The notes under the pieces: generated by a model | What the model was told of the DNA's origin: nothing | What the model saw: the letters and a program-made list of their open reading frames with translations, nothing else | The model's database searches: none | NCBI GenBank assembly: GCA_003599425.1 | Contig: QZKC01000022.1 | Span: 1 to 51,827 of the forward strand | Direction: 5' to 3' | Length of the DNA stretch: 51,827 nucleotides | Source: Nitrospiraceae bacterium | Lineage (GTDB): Bacteria > Nitrospirota > Thermodesulfovibrionia > UBA6902 | Part shown: positions 18,086-36,087 of the stretch, in pieces | Position numbering within the stretch: position 1 is the stretch's first letter | Layout: every line of letters begins with the position of its first letter | Position numbers and translations under genes: made by a program

Positions 18086-18089
18086 TTGA

Positions 18090-18127
18090 AGCGGGTTCAG
18101 GTGTTAAGCTTGAACCCGCTATTTTGT
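18090..18127 (+). terminator. Rho-independent terminator after the aldolase operon
   Basis: Perfect 10-bp stem AGCGGGTTCA (18090-18099) / TGAACCCGCT (18111-18120), 11-base loop, followed by ATTTTGTT. It separates the plus-strand operon from the convergent ATPase operon ending at 18134. Confidence 0.8.
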
Positions 18128-18133
18128 TGACAA

Positions 18134-20683
18134 TTATATCTTAGTCTTCTTTTTAATGGGTTTAGCTTTTCTATCTTTTGTTCCTGCATTTGATTTCCCC
18201 TCAACCATCTTTATCATATCTTCAACAATAATGCGCTCCTCATGTCGTAGCCTGTCAATGATTTCAGGGTCTCTGGTTTCGAGGTATTTGATGAAATTCG
18301 AAAAAGGAGACAATGCCTTTAATAATTCTGATTGCTTACTTTTCTCTATCTCAGTAATGCCCATTTTTAGCACATCCAATTTTTTCTCTTGAATTATGTT
18401 CCTGAATGCTGATATGAATGTGTTTATTCCTTCTTCAATATTTTTTAAATTTTTAAAATAAATTAGTGCTTCTTTCATATTTTTTACTGATGAGTCGATA
18501 TTTCCTTTAGTTCCTTCTTCCACAAAAACAGTTAATAACGTATCAATAAGCTTGTTTAAGACTCTATTAACCTCAGGGTTTATTTCTAATGCTTTTTTGT
18601 AGACATTTATTGCTTGATAATATTGCTTCAGTTTTGAATACATAATCCCAATGTTGTATAAGGCCTCGTATCTGTCAGGTTTAAGTGCAGTAGCTTTTTT
18701 GTAGACATCTTCTGCTTCAGCATACCGATTCAGTTCTGAATATGTATTCCCCAGATTATTTAAAGTCTTATAAGAATCGGGTTGGAATACAATGGCTTTT
18801 TTGTAGGCATCTTCTGCTTCGTCATACCGCTTTAATTCTGCGTATATCGTTCCAAGGTTATATAATGCGTTGAATAAATCAGGTTTAATTAGAATAGTTT
18901 TTTTATAGACATCTATTGCTTTATCATATCGCTTAAGCTTTGAATATAGAGATCCTAAATTATTTAAAGCTTCATATCTGTCAGGTGTAATTAAAATGGC
19001 TTTTTTATAAATATCAATCGCTTCATCATATCGATTTAGTTTTGAATATATAATCCCCAAATTGTTTAACGCCTCATATAGATTAGGATTAATTTCTAAA
19101 GTTTTTTTATAAGCATCTATTGCTTTGTTATTCAGTGATAGGTTTGCATATGTATCGCCGAGACTGTACCAAAGCATATACTTATTAGGCTCAATCTCTA
19201 TTGCTTTTTTGTAAGCTTGAACTGCTTTATCATAAAGTTTTTGTTTATTAAAGATGCACCCTTGTTGATATAGTTTGTCAACATTGGTTGGTTTGCTTTT
19301 TAATTCTTCTTTGATTATTTTTAATGCAATATCATAGTCTTTGCGTTGACATGCTACGAATATTTCATCACCTCCCTTAAATTCTGAGATTGCTTCTTTT
19401 AAATACCATAACTTATTCATGTCATGTTGAATTCCTTCATAGTTGTATTGTAATTTATAACGAAGTGCATCAAGTGTTTTATCAATAAATCCTAATAATT
19501 CTTCTTTTGTAAACCATAACTCCAAAAACTTCACAATAAACCCAAGCCTTTTCCTTCCTGCTTCCACTCTCATTTGTCTCCATAGGCTGAAGAGTCTTTC
19601 ATTGAAGTCATAAAAAACTTTTTTTGCATGTTTTTTTGAAATCCTGATGTAGCCGGCTCTTTCAAGTCTTTTAATTTGAGACAGAACGACATTGACAGGC
19701 ATATAACAGCGGCCGGCTATCTCAGTCGGGGTTAGCAGTCCTTCTGCCCGTGCCATTACATCAATTATTTCTTTTTGCTGTTCTGAGAGGTCCTTCATCC
19801 TTTCTCTGAAATAAGGAGAAAGCTCATCAAGGAGTTTAAGAAAAGTATTTTCTACTGAAGTTATATCGCCTTCGACAATTATGTGGTACAGGCTGAGTAT
19901 GAGCCGGGGATTACCGCCTGCAAGTTCATGGATTGCCCTGAGCTTTGCTTCTTCTTTTTTCAACTTATCTATAAGGTCATCTCTTTCCTCAAGTTTTGCA
20001 TAGCGATGCAGAAGTGAAATAGTATCTTCAAATGACAAATCCTTGAGCCAGATAATTTCAAAAAAATTATAAAGAGGTCTACCATGATTAATTATCGAGT
20101 CAAAGAGTGTTGGAGCAGCGCCGATAAGTAAAATGCTGTCACTCGTCATCAGCACCTCACGTAATGTGGACTGGTCTTCGTCAGTAAAGCGCTCGATTAT
20201 ATCATTCAGGTTATCAGCAAGGAGCAGGAGAATTTTTCCACTCTTTTTCCTGAATGTTTTTATATAATCAATGGCCAGTTCTTTCTCTTTAACATTTAAA
20301 GTCGCCGCTTTCATTAGGTCTTGCGGAATAGGCGGAATATCCTCTATCCCTGATTCGCTGAGATATTGCAGTATCAGTTTAAAACACTTGGTTATATTCC
20401 CTGGATATTCTTCTTCAGAAAATATAACCGGAGTGAACTTGTTTTTGAAAACGTTCAGCTCTTTCGTTTTTATTTCTCCCCTGACGGAATGGTAGAGAAT
20501 TCGTAGCAAATGACTTTTGCCAATCCCTTTTGGGCCGATAAGTATTGCATGAGAAAAACTCTTACCTGAAGAAGCGCTCTTTAATATCCGTTTCAGATTA
20601 TCAAGCTCCGCATCCCTTCCGATAAGGGTATCCTCAAGGGTTTTCGGGTCGAGTAATGCTGGCGTGTATTTATAAAATCTCAT
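18134..20683 (-). CDS. STAND-like ATPase: P-loop domain, winged helix, seven TPRs
   Basis: The 849-residue protein has an N-terminal AAA/ORC-type ATPase (Walker A LIGPKGIGKSHLL near residue 43; Walker B-like ILLLLADNLND near 150-160), a winged helix (about residues 305-375: EIIDVMARAEGLLTPTEIAGR, IKRLERAGYIRIS), a linker, and about seven tandem TPRs (about 470-715) of the type ALNNLGIIYSKLNRYDEAID, with a basic tail KPIKKKTKI. NTPase-winged helix-TPR is the layout of STAND signalling NTPases, which sense through the repeats; a DNA-loading or defence role is possible. The start at 20683 was chosen because GGAGG lies 7 bases upstream; the frame is open further up. It overlaps the upstream gene's stop region, so the two are coupled. 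The DNA is visibly AT-richer than its neighbours. Confidence 0.8.
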   Translation of the reverse strand: MRFYKYTPALLDPKTLEDTLIGRDAELDNLKRILKSASSGKSFSHAILIGPKGIGKSHLLRILYHSVRGEIKTKELNVFKNKFTPVIFSEEEYPGNITKCFKLILQYLSESGIEDIPPIPQDLMKAATLNVKEKELAIDYIKTFRKKSGKILLLLADNLNDIIERFTDEDQSTLREVLMTSDSILLIGAAPTLFDSIINHGRPLYNFFEIIWLKDLSFEDTISLLHRYAKLEERDDLIDKLKKEEAKLRAIHELAGGNPRLILSLYHIIVEGDITSVENTFLKLLDELSPYFRERMKDLSEQQKEIIDVMARAEGLLTPTEIAGRCYMPVNVVLSQIKRLERAGYIRISKKHAKKVFYDFNERLFSLWRQMRVEAGRKRLGFIVKFLELWFTKEELLGFIDKTLDALRYKLQYNYEGIQHDMNKLWYLKEAISEFKGGDEIFVACQRKDYDIALKIIKEELKSKPTNVDKLYQQGCIFNKQKLYDKAVQAYKKAIEIEPNKYMLWYSLGDTYANLSLNNKAIDAYKKTLEINPNLYEALNNLGIIYSKLNRYDEAIDIYKKAILITPDRYEALNNLGSLYSKLKRYDKAIDVYKKTILIKPDLFNALYNLGTIYAELKRYDEAEDAYKKAIVFQPDSYKTLNNLGNTYSELNRYAEAEDVYKKATALKPDRYEALYNIGIMYSKLKQYYQAINVYKKALEINPEVNRVLNKLIDTLLTVFVEEGTKGNIDSSVKNMKEALIYFKNLKNIEEGINTFISAFRNIIQEKKLDVLKMGITEIEKSKQSELLKALSPFSNFIKYLETRDPEIIDRLRHEERIIVEDMIKMVEGKSNAGTKDRKAKPIKKKTKI

Positions 20684-20685
20684 GG

Positions 20686-21894
20686 TCATTCCTCCACTAA
20701 GTCGTAATACCTCAGCCACCACTCACGGAGGACATTGGTTGTGAAGCTGTAGGTTTTTGTATTAACGGAATATGAAACATAGAAGTCATTTTCAATATCG
20801 GTCATTAGGTGACTGAAGATTTCGTCGGTCAGTTTACCTTTGCAAGTTTGCCGAAACAACTTAAACAGATGGTTCTTATCAACCTTCCCTTTTCTCGCCA
20901 CTTCAAGAATCAGACGCTTGGCAACATGCTCACAGTGTTCATCATAATAGTCTTTCAATCTTGTAAAGTAATGCTCGAAATAGGTTCTGCTTGCCGGGCC
21001 TAAAACTTTCTCAAAATATGCCCTTTCAATAATTTCCTTATTAAGCGTTCGTTGTTTGAGCCTCATTTCATTTAGACTCTCATAGACGAGTATTTGCAGG
21101 AAATAAGGCACCGGAGCGCCGACTATATCGAGTATCTTTTCGATTATTGCAGGCTGTATCCGGGCAAGTTGTCCTTCATTTTTTAGAAGCGCTTTGACAT
21201 AGGCTGTTCCGTCTTCGATTGAAAAGGCACCCACACTGAGAATGTGGAAATCGTTTATCGTTTTTGTGCCTGCTTTAATCCTTTCCAATATATGTTCAAT
21301 GCCTATAGAACCGCCGACTATCCAACGAATCTTTTCCATGTCAGGCATTTGTCTAACGCTTCTGAACCAATGCAGAAAATCAAATGCCGTTTGCGGATTG
21401 TGCTTCTTTTCAATGTTCTGAACAAGCATTGGGAGCTCATCGAGAATAAAGATAATCCTGCGGTCGAATTCTCTCAGAGTTGAAATCAACTCCAGTCCTT
21501 TCTCTTGCCAGTTATCTTTTATACCGTCCCTTATCTTGATCCTCACCTCGGCTACATCTACCTCCTCGACAAGCTTAAAAATATTTTTCCCCCATTTGAC
21601 GGTGCTTTTTAAAAACTTTTTGAAGCGAGAGTCTACCAACGCGTTTGCCATAATCCCGGTTATAAAATCTTCCGGAGACTTCATGCCTTCCGTATCATGA
21701 AAGAAAACGGTGCAATCAGGCTGAGGATTTTCATATAGATGATACATTATGCTTGATTTACCGAATCTTCTCGGCGCCTTCAGAAGTACGGAACTTTTCT
21801 CAAGCGCCCTCCATATGGATTTTATTTCTTCATGCCTGTCCCAAAGGTCTTTCCCTTTTGCTATATTCCCAATAACAAAGCCCGGCCCTTCCAT
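20686..21894 (-). CDS. Archaeal-type P-loop ATPase (PF01637-like)
   Basis: The 402-residue protein has Walker A LLKAPRRFGKSSIM (residues about 37-50), Walker B RIIFILDELPML (about 165-176), a sensor strand WIVGGSIGIEHIL, and a C-terminal winged-helix-like part (about 310-400) ending SFTTNVLREWWLRYYDLVEE. The APRRFGKSS form is typical of the archaeal ATPase family, AAA-type proteins tied to mobile DNA, defence or signalling. ATG 21894 has GAGGAGG upstream. It is first in a two-gene operon; its TGA stop lies 2 bases before the next ATG. It is transcribed from the promoter with embedded palindromes at 21925-21964. Exact function unknown. Confidence 0.8.
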   Translation of the reverse strand: MEGPGFVIGNIAKGKDLWDRHEEIKSIWRALEKSSVLLKAPRRFGKSSIMYHLYENPQPDCTVFFHDTEGMKSPEDFITGIMANALVDSRFKKFLKSTVKWGKNIFKLVEEVDVAEVRIKIRDGIKDNWQEKGLELISTLREFDRRIIFILDELPMLVQNIEKKHNPQTAFDFLHWFRSVRQMPDMEKIRWIVGGSIGIEHILERIKAGTKTINDFHILSVGAFSIEDGTAYVKALLKNEGQLARIQPAIIEKILDIVGAPVPYFLQILVYESLNEMRLKQRTLNKEIIERAYFEKVLGPASRTYFEHYFTRLKDYYDEHCEHVAKRLILEVARKGKVDKNHLFKLFRQTCKGKLTDEIFSHLMTDIENDFYVSYSVNTKTYSFTTNVLREWWLRYYDLVEE

Positions 21895-21924
21895 TGTTAT
21901 GTCCTCCTCTTACTTGTTTGATGT

Positions 21925-21956
21925 ACGACAGATTTGTTATACAACAGAACTGTTGT
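21925..21956. promoter_or_regulatory. Two abutting 16-bp palindromic operator sites
   Basis: The site at 21941-21956 is the near-perfect palindrome ACAACAGAACTGTTGT (7-bp arms, 2-bp centre). The directly adjoining 21925-21940, ACGACAGATTTGTTAT, matches it at 12 of 16 positions with the same half-site spacing. The first fills the promoter spacer, the second covers the region just past the -10 box. Confidence 0.7.
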
Positions 21957-21964
21957 AATGTCAA
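21936..21964 (-). promoter_or_regulatory. Strong promoter of the ATPase-TPR operon
   Basis: On the minus strand TTGACA (21959-21964) and TATAAC (21936-21941) are spaced by exactly 17 bases, near-consensus for sigma-70. The spacer is occupied by the palindrome at 21941-21956, so a bound repressor would block RNA polymerase. Confidence 0.75.
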
Positions 21965-22042
21965 GGGGGATGGGGCACATTGATTGTAACTGCTTAACGC
22001 TTACACGCGGTAAGTAACACAGAATTTTGGTGCTATTTATCC

Positions 22043-25478: not shown

Positions 25479-25690
25479 TCATGGCGAACTCTGTTCCAAT
25501 GGAAGGCACATAGGGACAAAGGCACAGAGGCACAAAGGCAAGGCTGGCGAAGGATTTCTATACGACACCTTTGAAAAAAAGACTTTGAATCTTATCGAAA
25601 GATTACATCTGAAAATGAAAAGACAAAATGCAAACAATTCTGTCGATCATAGAAATCCTGAGACAGGCTTGCCTTTGTGATATCTAAACA
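25479..25690 (+). mobile_element. MITE-like element family E, copy 1
   Basis: Inverted ends GGCAAGGCTGGCGAAGGATT (from 25537) and the reverse complement of GGCAAGCCTGTCTCAGGATT (ending 25673), both followed by TTCTAT and GACA. An outer left part has tandem GGCACAAA-like units (25504-25537) after CTCTGTTCCAATGGA. There is no coding content. Related copies are at 30070-30180, 36139-36333 and 38385-38490. Confidence 0.7.
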
Positions 25691-35007: not shown

Positions 35008-36087
35008 CTATGAAAGTCGTTTTAATTTGTGAAGGAAAATCCGGTTCTCCTTCGGCGTCCCGACCGTGACCCGCAAACAGTTGTCGATCACGCCCGACAT
35101 GTTACGGATGAGAACACCGTTATGTAACAGACTATTATAAATTGTATCAGCATTCTTTACCTTAAATAAAATAAAATTTGCATCGGATGGATATGGTGTT
35201 ACCCCTCTGATCTTCTTCATCTCTTTCAGCAGCCTTTTTCTTTCTGAGATTATTGATGAAATGTTCGTGTGCATCTGCTTTTTGTTTTTCAACGCTTCAA
35301 CGGCAGCTTTTTGTGAAAGGGCATTGACGTTAAAAGGAAGCCGCACGGTGTTGACTGCATGTATTATCTCTTCGTCGGCGATGAGGAATCCGAGCCTCAG
35401 GCCTGCAAGGCCTATCTTGCTCAGCGTCCTCATTATGACGAGGTTTTTGAATTTATCGAGCAGGGGCAGGAATTCGTTTTTGCCTGAGAACGGCTGATAT
35501 GCCTCATCAACGATCACAAGTGACGGGTGGCGCGTAATGTGCGACGAAGTTGCCTTGATCACCTTTAAAATCCTGTCTGAAGAAAAGCAGTTGCCTGTCG
35601 GGTTATTGGGCGAACTGAGAAATATGAGTTTCGGTTTGTTCTTTTTTATCGTCTGAATGATTTTATCAATATCAAGATCGAACCTGGAATCAAGAGGGAT
35701 GCCTATCCCCTTTTCGTTGAGCGCCTGCGAGATGATACCGTACATAGAGAATGTCGGAACCGGATAGAGCACTGGCCCGCCGAATGCCGTGATCAGATAA
35801 TAAATAAGCTCATCAGAACCGTTCCCGTGAAGGATGTTCTCAGGCTTTACTTTTAATTCCTTTGCCATGAGTTTTCTAAGGGCCTTCGCCTGAGGATCAG
35901 GATAACGATTCAACAGTTGCAAGGTTTTATTAACTCTGACCTCTGACCCCTGACCCCTGACCCCTGAATACGGGCTCTCATTAGCATCCAGTTTTACCCT
36001 GCAAGGGATTTCTTCAGCGTGATAAGCGCGCAGGGAGCGTATATTGGGTTTCAGGAGCTTCTGTACATCCATTTCTTTTTCGGGCAT
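35008..36087 (-). CDS. hisC: Histidinol-phosphate aminotransferase
   Basis: The 359-residue class II PLP aminotransferase makes histidinol phosphate from imidazole-acetol phosphate. Motifs: VKLDANESPYS, LLNRYPDPQAKALR, ILHGNGSDELIYYL, PNNPTGNCFS, VIVDEAYQPFSG, MRTLSKIGLAGLRLGF with the PLP Lys, and MSGVIDNCLRVTVGT. The run SGVRGQGSEVRV after NESPY is encoded by a GGGGTCA heptamer repeat, so part of the usual N-terminal loop is replaced by repeat-derived sequence. Start is uncertain: ATG 36087 is used; ATG 36072 is also possible. TATAAT on the minus strand at 36097-36102 lies so close that the message would have almost no leader. Confidence 0.93.
   Translation of the reverse strand: MPEKEMDVQKLLKPNIRSLRAYHAEEIPCRVKLDANESPYSGVRGQGSEVRVNKTLQLLNRYPDPQAKALRKLMAKELKVKPENILHGNGSDELIYYLITAFGGPVLYPVPTFSMYGIISQALNEKGIGIPLDSRFDLDIDKIIQTIKKNKPKLIFLSSPNNPTGNCFSSDRILKVIKATSSHITRHPSLVIVDEAYQPFSGKNEFLPLLDKFKNLVIMRTLSKIGLAGLRLGFLIADEEIIHAVNTVRLPFNVNALSQKAAVEALKNKKQMHTNISSIISERKRLLKEMKKIRGVTPYPSDANFILFKVKNADTIYNSLLHNGVLIRNMSGVIDNCLRVTVGTPKENRIFLHKLKRLS
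35934..35968. repeat. TGACCCC heptamer run inside hisC
   Basis: About five 7-base units (TGACCCC; GGGGTCA on the coding strand), the first slightly diverged, translated as SGVRGQGSEVR. The same unit forms a hairpin in the intergenic region at 48816-48886. Confidence 0.8.

Follow-up and report, generated by a model that had tools for sequence, protein, structure and literature searches.

What is an operon of two ATPase genes, with a promoter of its own, doing between housekeeping genes of a Nitrospiraceae bacterium? The two genes, here denoted A and B, are located on the reverse strand of contig QZKC01000022.1 (assembly GCA_003599425.1), a 51,827-nucleotide stretch that was analyzed at its full length and is hereafter called the window. 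Gene A (20686..21894, reverse strand) encodes a 402 amino acid (aa) ATPase of the archaeal ATPase_2/ORC-Cdc6-like type, with a C-terminal winged helix and an intact Walker B motif (D152 E153). Gene B (18134..20689, reverse strand) encodes an 851 aa ATPase with an asparagine at the position of the Walker B glutamate, a winged helix, seven tetratricopeptide repeats (TPRs) and a conserved C-terminal cap. The best supported reading, to which we assign not quite an even chance, is that the operon is a two-protein, autoregulated sensor switch of the ORC/STAND type. An anti-phage function of the A-B pair is, judging from the sequences, reasonable but unproven.

Both proteins are P-loop ATPases, as had been proposed in an earlier note on this DNA; the assignment follows from the predicted structure of A and from the AAA_16 Pfam match of B. 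The description of A as a PF01637-like ATPase in the same note is upheld by structure and not by sequence: the match to PF01637 (ATPase_2; E=5e-4) is under the Pfam cut-off, whereas the best matches of the predicted structure (pLDDT 87) are the archaeal ATPases 2qen and 2fna, which have the same fold and the same Walker A/B layout. Unlike these archaeal proteins, A is tied to a paralogous partner gene. The next structural matches are ORC2, the Cdc6/Orc1 heterodimer on origin DNA and CED-4 (1w5t and 2qby are among the matches), and Avs3 appears at rank 29. Matches of A to dynein light chains (best E 0.005) were judged to be due to chance. B has the STAND layout with seven TPRs that the note described, with the Pfam families AAA_16, HTH_24 (the winged helix, residues 302-349; 19643..19786, reverse strand) and TPR (seven units at residues 469-706; 18572..19285, reverse strand). 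The predicted structure of B has a pLDDT of 85 and a pTM of 0.53, and the structure search with it is dominated by TPR proteins, the STAND protein 6mfv being found at rank 41.

A and B are distant paralogs of the archaeal-ATPase/ORC-Cdc6/STAND kind. Comparison of their profiles gives a probability of 97.1 over 322 columns spanning the ATPase and the winged helix; a two-sequence BLAST comparison of A and B gave no significant match. A P-loop core followed by a winged helix, the arrangement that marks the STAND and ORC-Cdc6 clade, is found in A by structure and in B by the Pfam matches together with the profile match to A. The Walker B Asp-Glu is present in all 18 A sequences that cover the motif (the alignment omits the pieces in L056, L057 and L075), and asparagine replaces the glutamate in 19 of the 20 B sequences, with Walker A retained. 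P-loop chemistry predicts that A hydrolyzes ATP and that B binds ATP but does not hydrolyze it normally. The paralogy, the loss of the catalytic glutamate from B and the candidate operator array in front of the pair go beyond the earlier note.

The genes are coupled as tightly as that note stated, with 2 bases between stop and start: the TGA of A is followed by CC and then by ATG. An overlapping ATGA start is also present, and the alternative start of B is the ATG at 20683. The promoter, TTGACA-17-TATAAC (21936..21964, reverse strand), contains a perfect 8+8 inverted repeat and so agrees with the near-consensus, palindrome-bearing promoter that had been described; the promoter scanner missed it because it requires T at the final -10 position. 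The housekeeping flanks proved to be a class II aldolase-like gene and threonine synthase, and the AT-richness noticed by eye is matched by measurement, with a GC content of 37.0% in the operon compared with 46.9% in the remaining window (41.5% in A and 30.8% in the second half of B).

The tight control that the earlier note postulated takes the form of a candidate operator array that belongs to the operon (21919..21962, reverse strand). The array advances in 16-bp steps with the consensus TGTTRTAYAACA and comprises a weak unit (21962-21951), a full unit (21946-21935) and a third unit (21930-21919), covering the promoter spacer, the -10 element and the likely start site. The motif at the 16-bp step also precedes A in G009, G063, G044, G319, G171 and G186, which together with the window makes seven genomes from several families. 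In these seven near-type genomes, a two-unit site with at most two mismatches is found at the operon promoter only; across the 11 genomes covered by the regulon search, five single sites with three mismatches occur elsewhere (G000 C18, G002 C68, G004 C36, G186 C23 and G319 C114:3460), and a reversed control pattern matched once per strand in G001. A wider regulon of the array was rejected, with no second target at two or fewer mismatches in the seven near-type genomes. A different array precedes the copy in G008 and was matched there alone among 10 genomes, four of which carry related pairs. That the array accompanies the operon across families and lacks a second target suggests that it is bound by winged-helix proteins of the operon itself, A, B or both.

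The best self-lag is 16 or 17 in 12 of the 16 operon promoters (two ties included) compared with 9 of the 66 comparison promoters drawn from these loci, and a score of at least 16 in addition to this lag is reached by 8 of 16 and 1 of 66, respectively, in a test whose form was chosen after the repeats had been seen and in which related promoters were counted separately; after collapsing the promoters to groups, about 4 of 8 have a best lag of 16 or 17. The operon promoters have a GC content of 30%, compared with 39% in the comparison promoters. The 12-mer count is weak alone, with 31 of 300 shuffles of the window promoter reaching its two units.

The pairing recurs across genomes, a check that the earlier note had asked for. 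The N-terminal 446 residues of B are found at E<=1e-10 in 15 of the 395 genomes of the phylum, and A is found at the same threshold in the identical 15 (at E<=1e-3, in 17 of 395); the scans scored at most four candidates per genome, so that misses are possible. In the loci of those 15 genomes and of G009, B directly follows A on the same strand where the assembly allows; at junctions with both ends clear, the two genes overlap by as much as 14 bases or are separated by as many as 4. The B gene of L061 lacks an ATG where B usually starts, A is broken up in G044 (two pieces at two contig ends) and G319 (three pieces), and it is truncated by the contig end in G294, G405 and G355. The divergence of A and that of B are strongly correlated (r=0.96 for 78 pairs from 13 loci with both genes; L058, L059, L060, L063 and L072, which are partial or short, and L056, L057, L071 and L075, which are missing from one of the two lists, are omitted). 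Compared with the nearest relative, the ratio of nonsynonymous to synonymous substitution rates (dN/dS) is 0.08 for A and 0.05 for the core of B, the latter at a dS of 1.8 that is near saturation; such low values indicate more than chance conservation. A Parabacteroides ATPase was dropped because its annotation shows no adjoining B.

The spread of the operon is patchy and horizontal. Near-type copies are present in only 2 of the 10 genomes of the genus, all 10 of which have the aldolase gene, and A is 27% identical to its counterpart in the same-genus G008 compared with 65% in a genome placed only in the same phylum. The window and G009 can be aligned over the aldolase gene, 18088-18313 and 19496-21967, and in two further same-genus genomes the match downstream of the aldolase gene is limited to 18088-18127; the left edge of the unit common to the window and G009 coincides with a terminator-like hairpin of the aldolase gene (18090..18120, forward strand). 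The mobile unit thus corresponds approximately to the operon and its promoter. A was also found on five plasmid records, namely three from Moraxella and those of Segatella and Methylomonas. The Moraxella plasmids encode B proteins of 699 to 709 aa, and in one of them an IS5 transposase gene interrupts A; in the Segatella plasmid, B is 298 aa long; in the Methylomonas plasmid (L071:7965-9399), A (~26% identical) is intact and B is broken after about 85 codons. Apart from A and B, the genes that recurred in different families when the loci were compared are of the transposase type, along with a few other single cross-matches, and no third gene regularly follows the pair in the compared loci. In G186 (L062:12115-14165), the gene that B overlaps reads from its sequence as response-regulator-like and the next one as histidine-kinase-like; neither was seen at the other loci.

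Carriage on plasmids, the patchy spread and the layout of coupled genes behind a palindrome-bearing promoter are all compatible with a toxin-antitoxin-like addiction module, in which one ATPase would be harmful when free, the other would neutralize it, and the complex would repress the shared promoter. We regard this as improbable given that A and B are both paralogous ATPases, a composition unlike that of the toxin-antitoxin families familiar to us; moreover, an intact A accompanies a broken B in Methylomonas, and an intact B accompanies a broken A in G319, so that neither protein is obviously lethal alone, barring assembly errors or a dead partner. Plasmid presence has also to be considered together with the even spacing of the repeats and the structural resemblance between A and both ORC2 and the origin-bound Cdc6/Orc1 heterodimer, a combination that could signify replication initiation of a small element by ORC-like proteins bound to iterons at their own promoter. 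This seems highly improbable, because the array overlaps the -35 and -10 elements and has just 2 to 4 units, because the sharing across families is limited to A and B save for the transposase-type genes and the few single cross-matches, and because the segment that the window and G009 have in common after the aldolase gene stops at the promoter.

A sensor role is suggested by the mode of evolution of B. Between the window and G009, B is identical at 338 of 398 positions over residues 1-400 and at 35 of 49 in residues 801-850, whereas the middle is barely alignable, and the seven TPR units of the window protein compare with none in G009. The conserved C-terminal cap (about residues 790-832; 18194..18322, reverse strand; limits set by eye) is thus retained despite the exchange of the middle. 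The same pattern is seen within a single genus, where the L061 and L062 proteins are identical at 325 of 389 positions of the start and retain both ends, with three TPR units in the former and none in the latter. Across the near-type loci, the number of units varies from 0 to 7, the TPR array being exchanged or absent in near relatives of the window protein. The last 77 codons of B have a dN/dS of 0.37 relative to the nearest relative. The exchanged middle is consistent with changing selection on a recognition region, and neutral repeat recombination could be a partial cause of the exchange. The TPR-coding DNA of the window is itself a tandem array (18577-19108; period 102, 5.2 copies, 69% matches), and such an organization could favor changes in copy number.

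The link to defence that the earlier note inferred is partly supported, by known or candidate defence genes around the plasmid relatives, and finds little support elsewhere. In the scan of 31 of the 42 plasmid neighbors (the others, ten in L075 and one in L074, mostly repeat those of L073/L074), with 25 of 53 families listed, the genes adjoining the pair include, among the matches listed, QatC, QatD, type I restriction, AbiD-like and 2TM-effector-like genes and a WYL regulator; the remnant of the pair in the Methylomonas plasmid adjoins AbiD-like, 2TM-effector-like and type I restriction genes. In the Moraxella plasmid AP031474.1 (L074:7122-10868), a gene for a 1248 aa protein with Avs4 (residues 3-248) and PD-Lambda-4_A matches overlaps B by 17 bases and is possibly a third gene of the operon, in this single record. 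Among the 124 neighbors in the 15 other genomes, taken as open reading frames of at least 120 aa within 6 kb, few matched defence models: 13 PADLOC families were detected at E<=1e-15, none of them in more than two members. The 11 families that were mapped to proteins are all housekeeping look-alikes save one Fic protein: we read the matching proteins as a NifS/IscS-like enzyme (DndA, SspA), an FtsH-like protein (four IetA models), two ComEC-like proteins (LmuA, RTasMBL, PDC-M48B) and the Fic protein (SoFic, PDC-S24); mad3 and mad8, with two members each, are the two families outside the mapped set. The Fic protein, located beside the G044 copy (L057:5032-7200; SoFic model E 4.8e-46), may genuinely serve in defence or as a toxin. 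Two small genes near it resemble a toxin-antitoxin pair.

Comparison of A and B with the anti-phage models of PADLOC 2.0 (2023), which cover systems described up to that year, matched no known system. No PADLOC or NCBIfam model matched A at E<=0.01, and the matches of B at this threshold are to TPR or weak ATPase models (best PADLOC E 8.7e-7). A has no matches in phage records and likewise none in viral contigs, where the search reaches close relatives only; B of G008 matches phage records solely in its C-terminal repeat part (residues 473-741).

Several observations weigh against a sensor switch dedicated to defence. A defence-island context was sought around the non-plasmid copies and not found, their neighbors being mostly housekeeping genes; no nuclease, protease, membrane or other effector domain was found; and the conservation and selection are compatible with any useful switch, not with defence alone. 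The Segatella protein, the sole exception among the B sequences, has Asp-Glu and lacks the long C-terminal part. As for the array, the lag signal in L061, L064, L065 and L067 is no better than in their own shuffles (36 to 91 of 100 shuffles reach it), the best lag in L068, L069, L071 and L073 is other than 16 or 17, and in Methylomonas a near-type motif lies upstream at a 44-bp step while B is broken, so that the motif does not change in step with the protein in every case. Housekeeping neighborhoods, the lack of a detected effector domain and an autoregulatory array at the promoter would all be expected of an ordinary sensor-regulator. MalT and AfsR are STAND NTPases with TPR sensors, and a similar ATPase pair might respond to a TPR-sensed cell signal by adjusting its own level or a cellular process, with no role in conflict. 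This explanation is possible, if on the unlikely side, considering that the sensor region of B is exchanged, the spread is patchy and horizontal, the plasmid relatives adjoin defence genes, and the array has no second target at two or fewer mismatches.

No title or abstract describing the A-B pair was found in the open-licence papers searched. B resembles the TPR-sensor STANDs (6mfv) and Avs in combining an ATPase, a winged helix and a repeat sensor, and differs from them in having no N-terminal effector and no Walker B glutamate and in being partnered with a separate ATPase whose Walker B is intact. The nearest description found, in the available part of PMC10853773, is that of Orc/CDC6 operons with a second Orc/CDC6, in which Walker A is intact and Walker B is disrupted, and a KAP NTPase. 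The common features are two ORC-type ATPases, the second with Walker A kept and Walker B damaged, along with mobility and a connection to conflict. By description only, B corresponds to the Walker-B-disrupted second ATPase, but the pair in the window has no adjoining KAP gene, and the available description does not mention an exchangeable middle or an operator array. In BREX, according to the part of PMC12839542 available, an ORC/Cdc6 ATPase with a winged helix (BrxC) stands beside the inactive STAND protein BrxB, which lacks both Walker motifs. The A-B pair is similar in placing an ORC/Cdc6-type ATPase alongside an apparently inactive STAND protein; unlike BrxB, B retains Walker A, and A has no PADLOC match at E<=0.01.

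Under the sensor-switch reading, A and B would form a mixed complex, in which A would hydrolyze ATP and B would serve as a nucleotide-holding receptor. The resting complex would sit on the array via one or both winged helices and keep its own expression low; a ligand bound at the TPRs, or at another version of the B middle, would shift the nucleotide state, so that the complex is released or re-assembled and repression is relieved. Given the exchange of the sensor part, the patchy, horizontal spread of the operon and the defence genes around its plasmid relatives, the trigger would most likely be the product of a phage or a plasmid. A bolder version of this scheme, which we consider doubtful, is that the operon represents an undescribed class of immune switches, in which A and its Walker-B-altered paralog assemble at 16-bp pitch on their own array, the receptor at rest is stationed on the promoter itself, swapping of the TPR cassette retunes sensing, and sensing converts the DNA-bound complex to an effector form. 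If the sensor-switch reading is right, it would connect DNA binding of the ORC/Cdc6-like type with STAND-type sensing and with the autoregulation of a conflict system, three subjects usually studied apart. Because the pair is small and portable and comes with its own operator, the regulation and any defence function are testable with two genes and about 70 promoter bases, and the natural pairs with and without TPRs (the window and G009; L061 and L062) are ready-made sensor swaps.

Away from the operon, the window contains short tandem repeats at 25503-25540 and 35936-35967 (AAGGCACA units and CTGACCC units, respectively).

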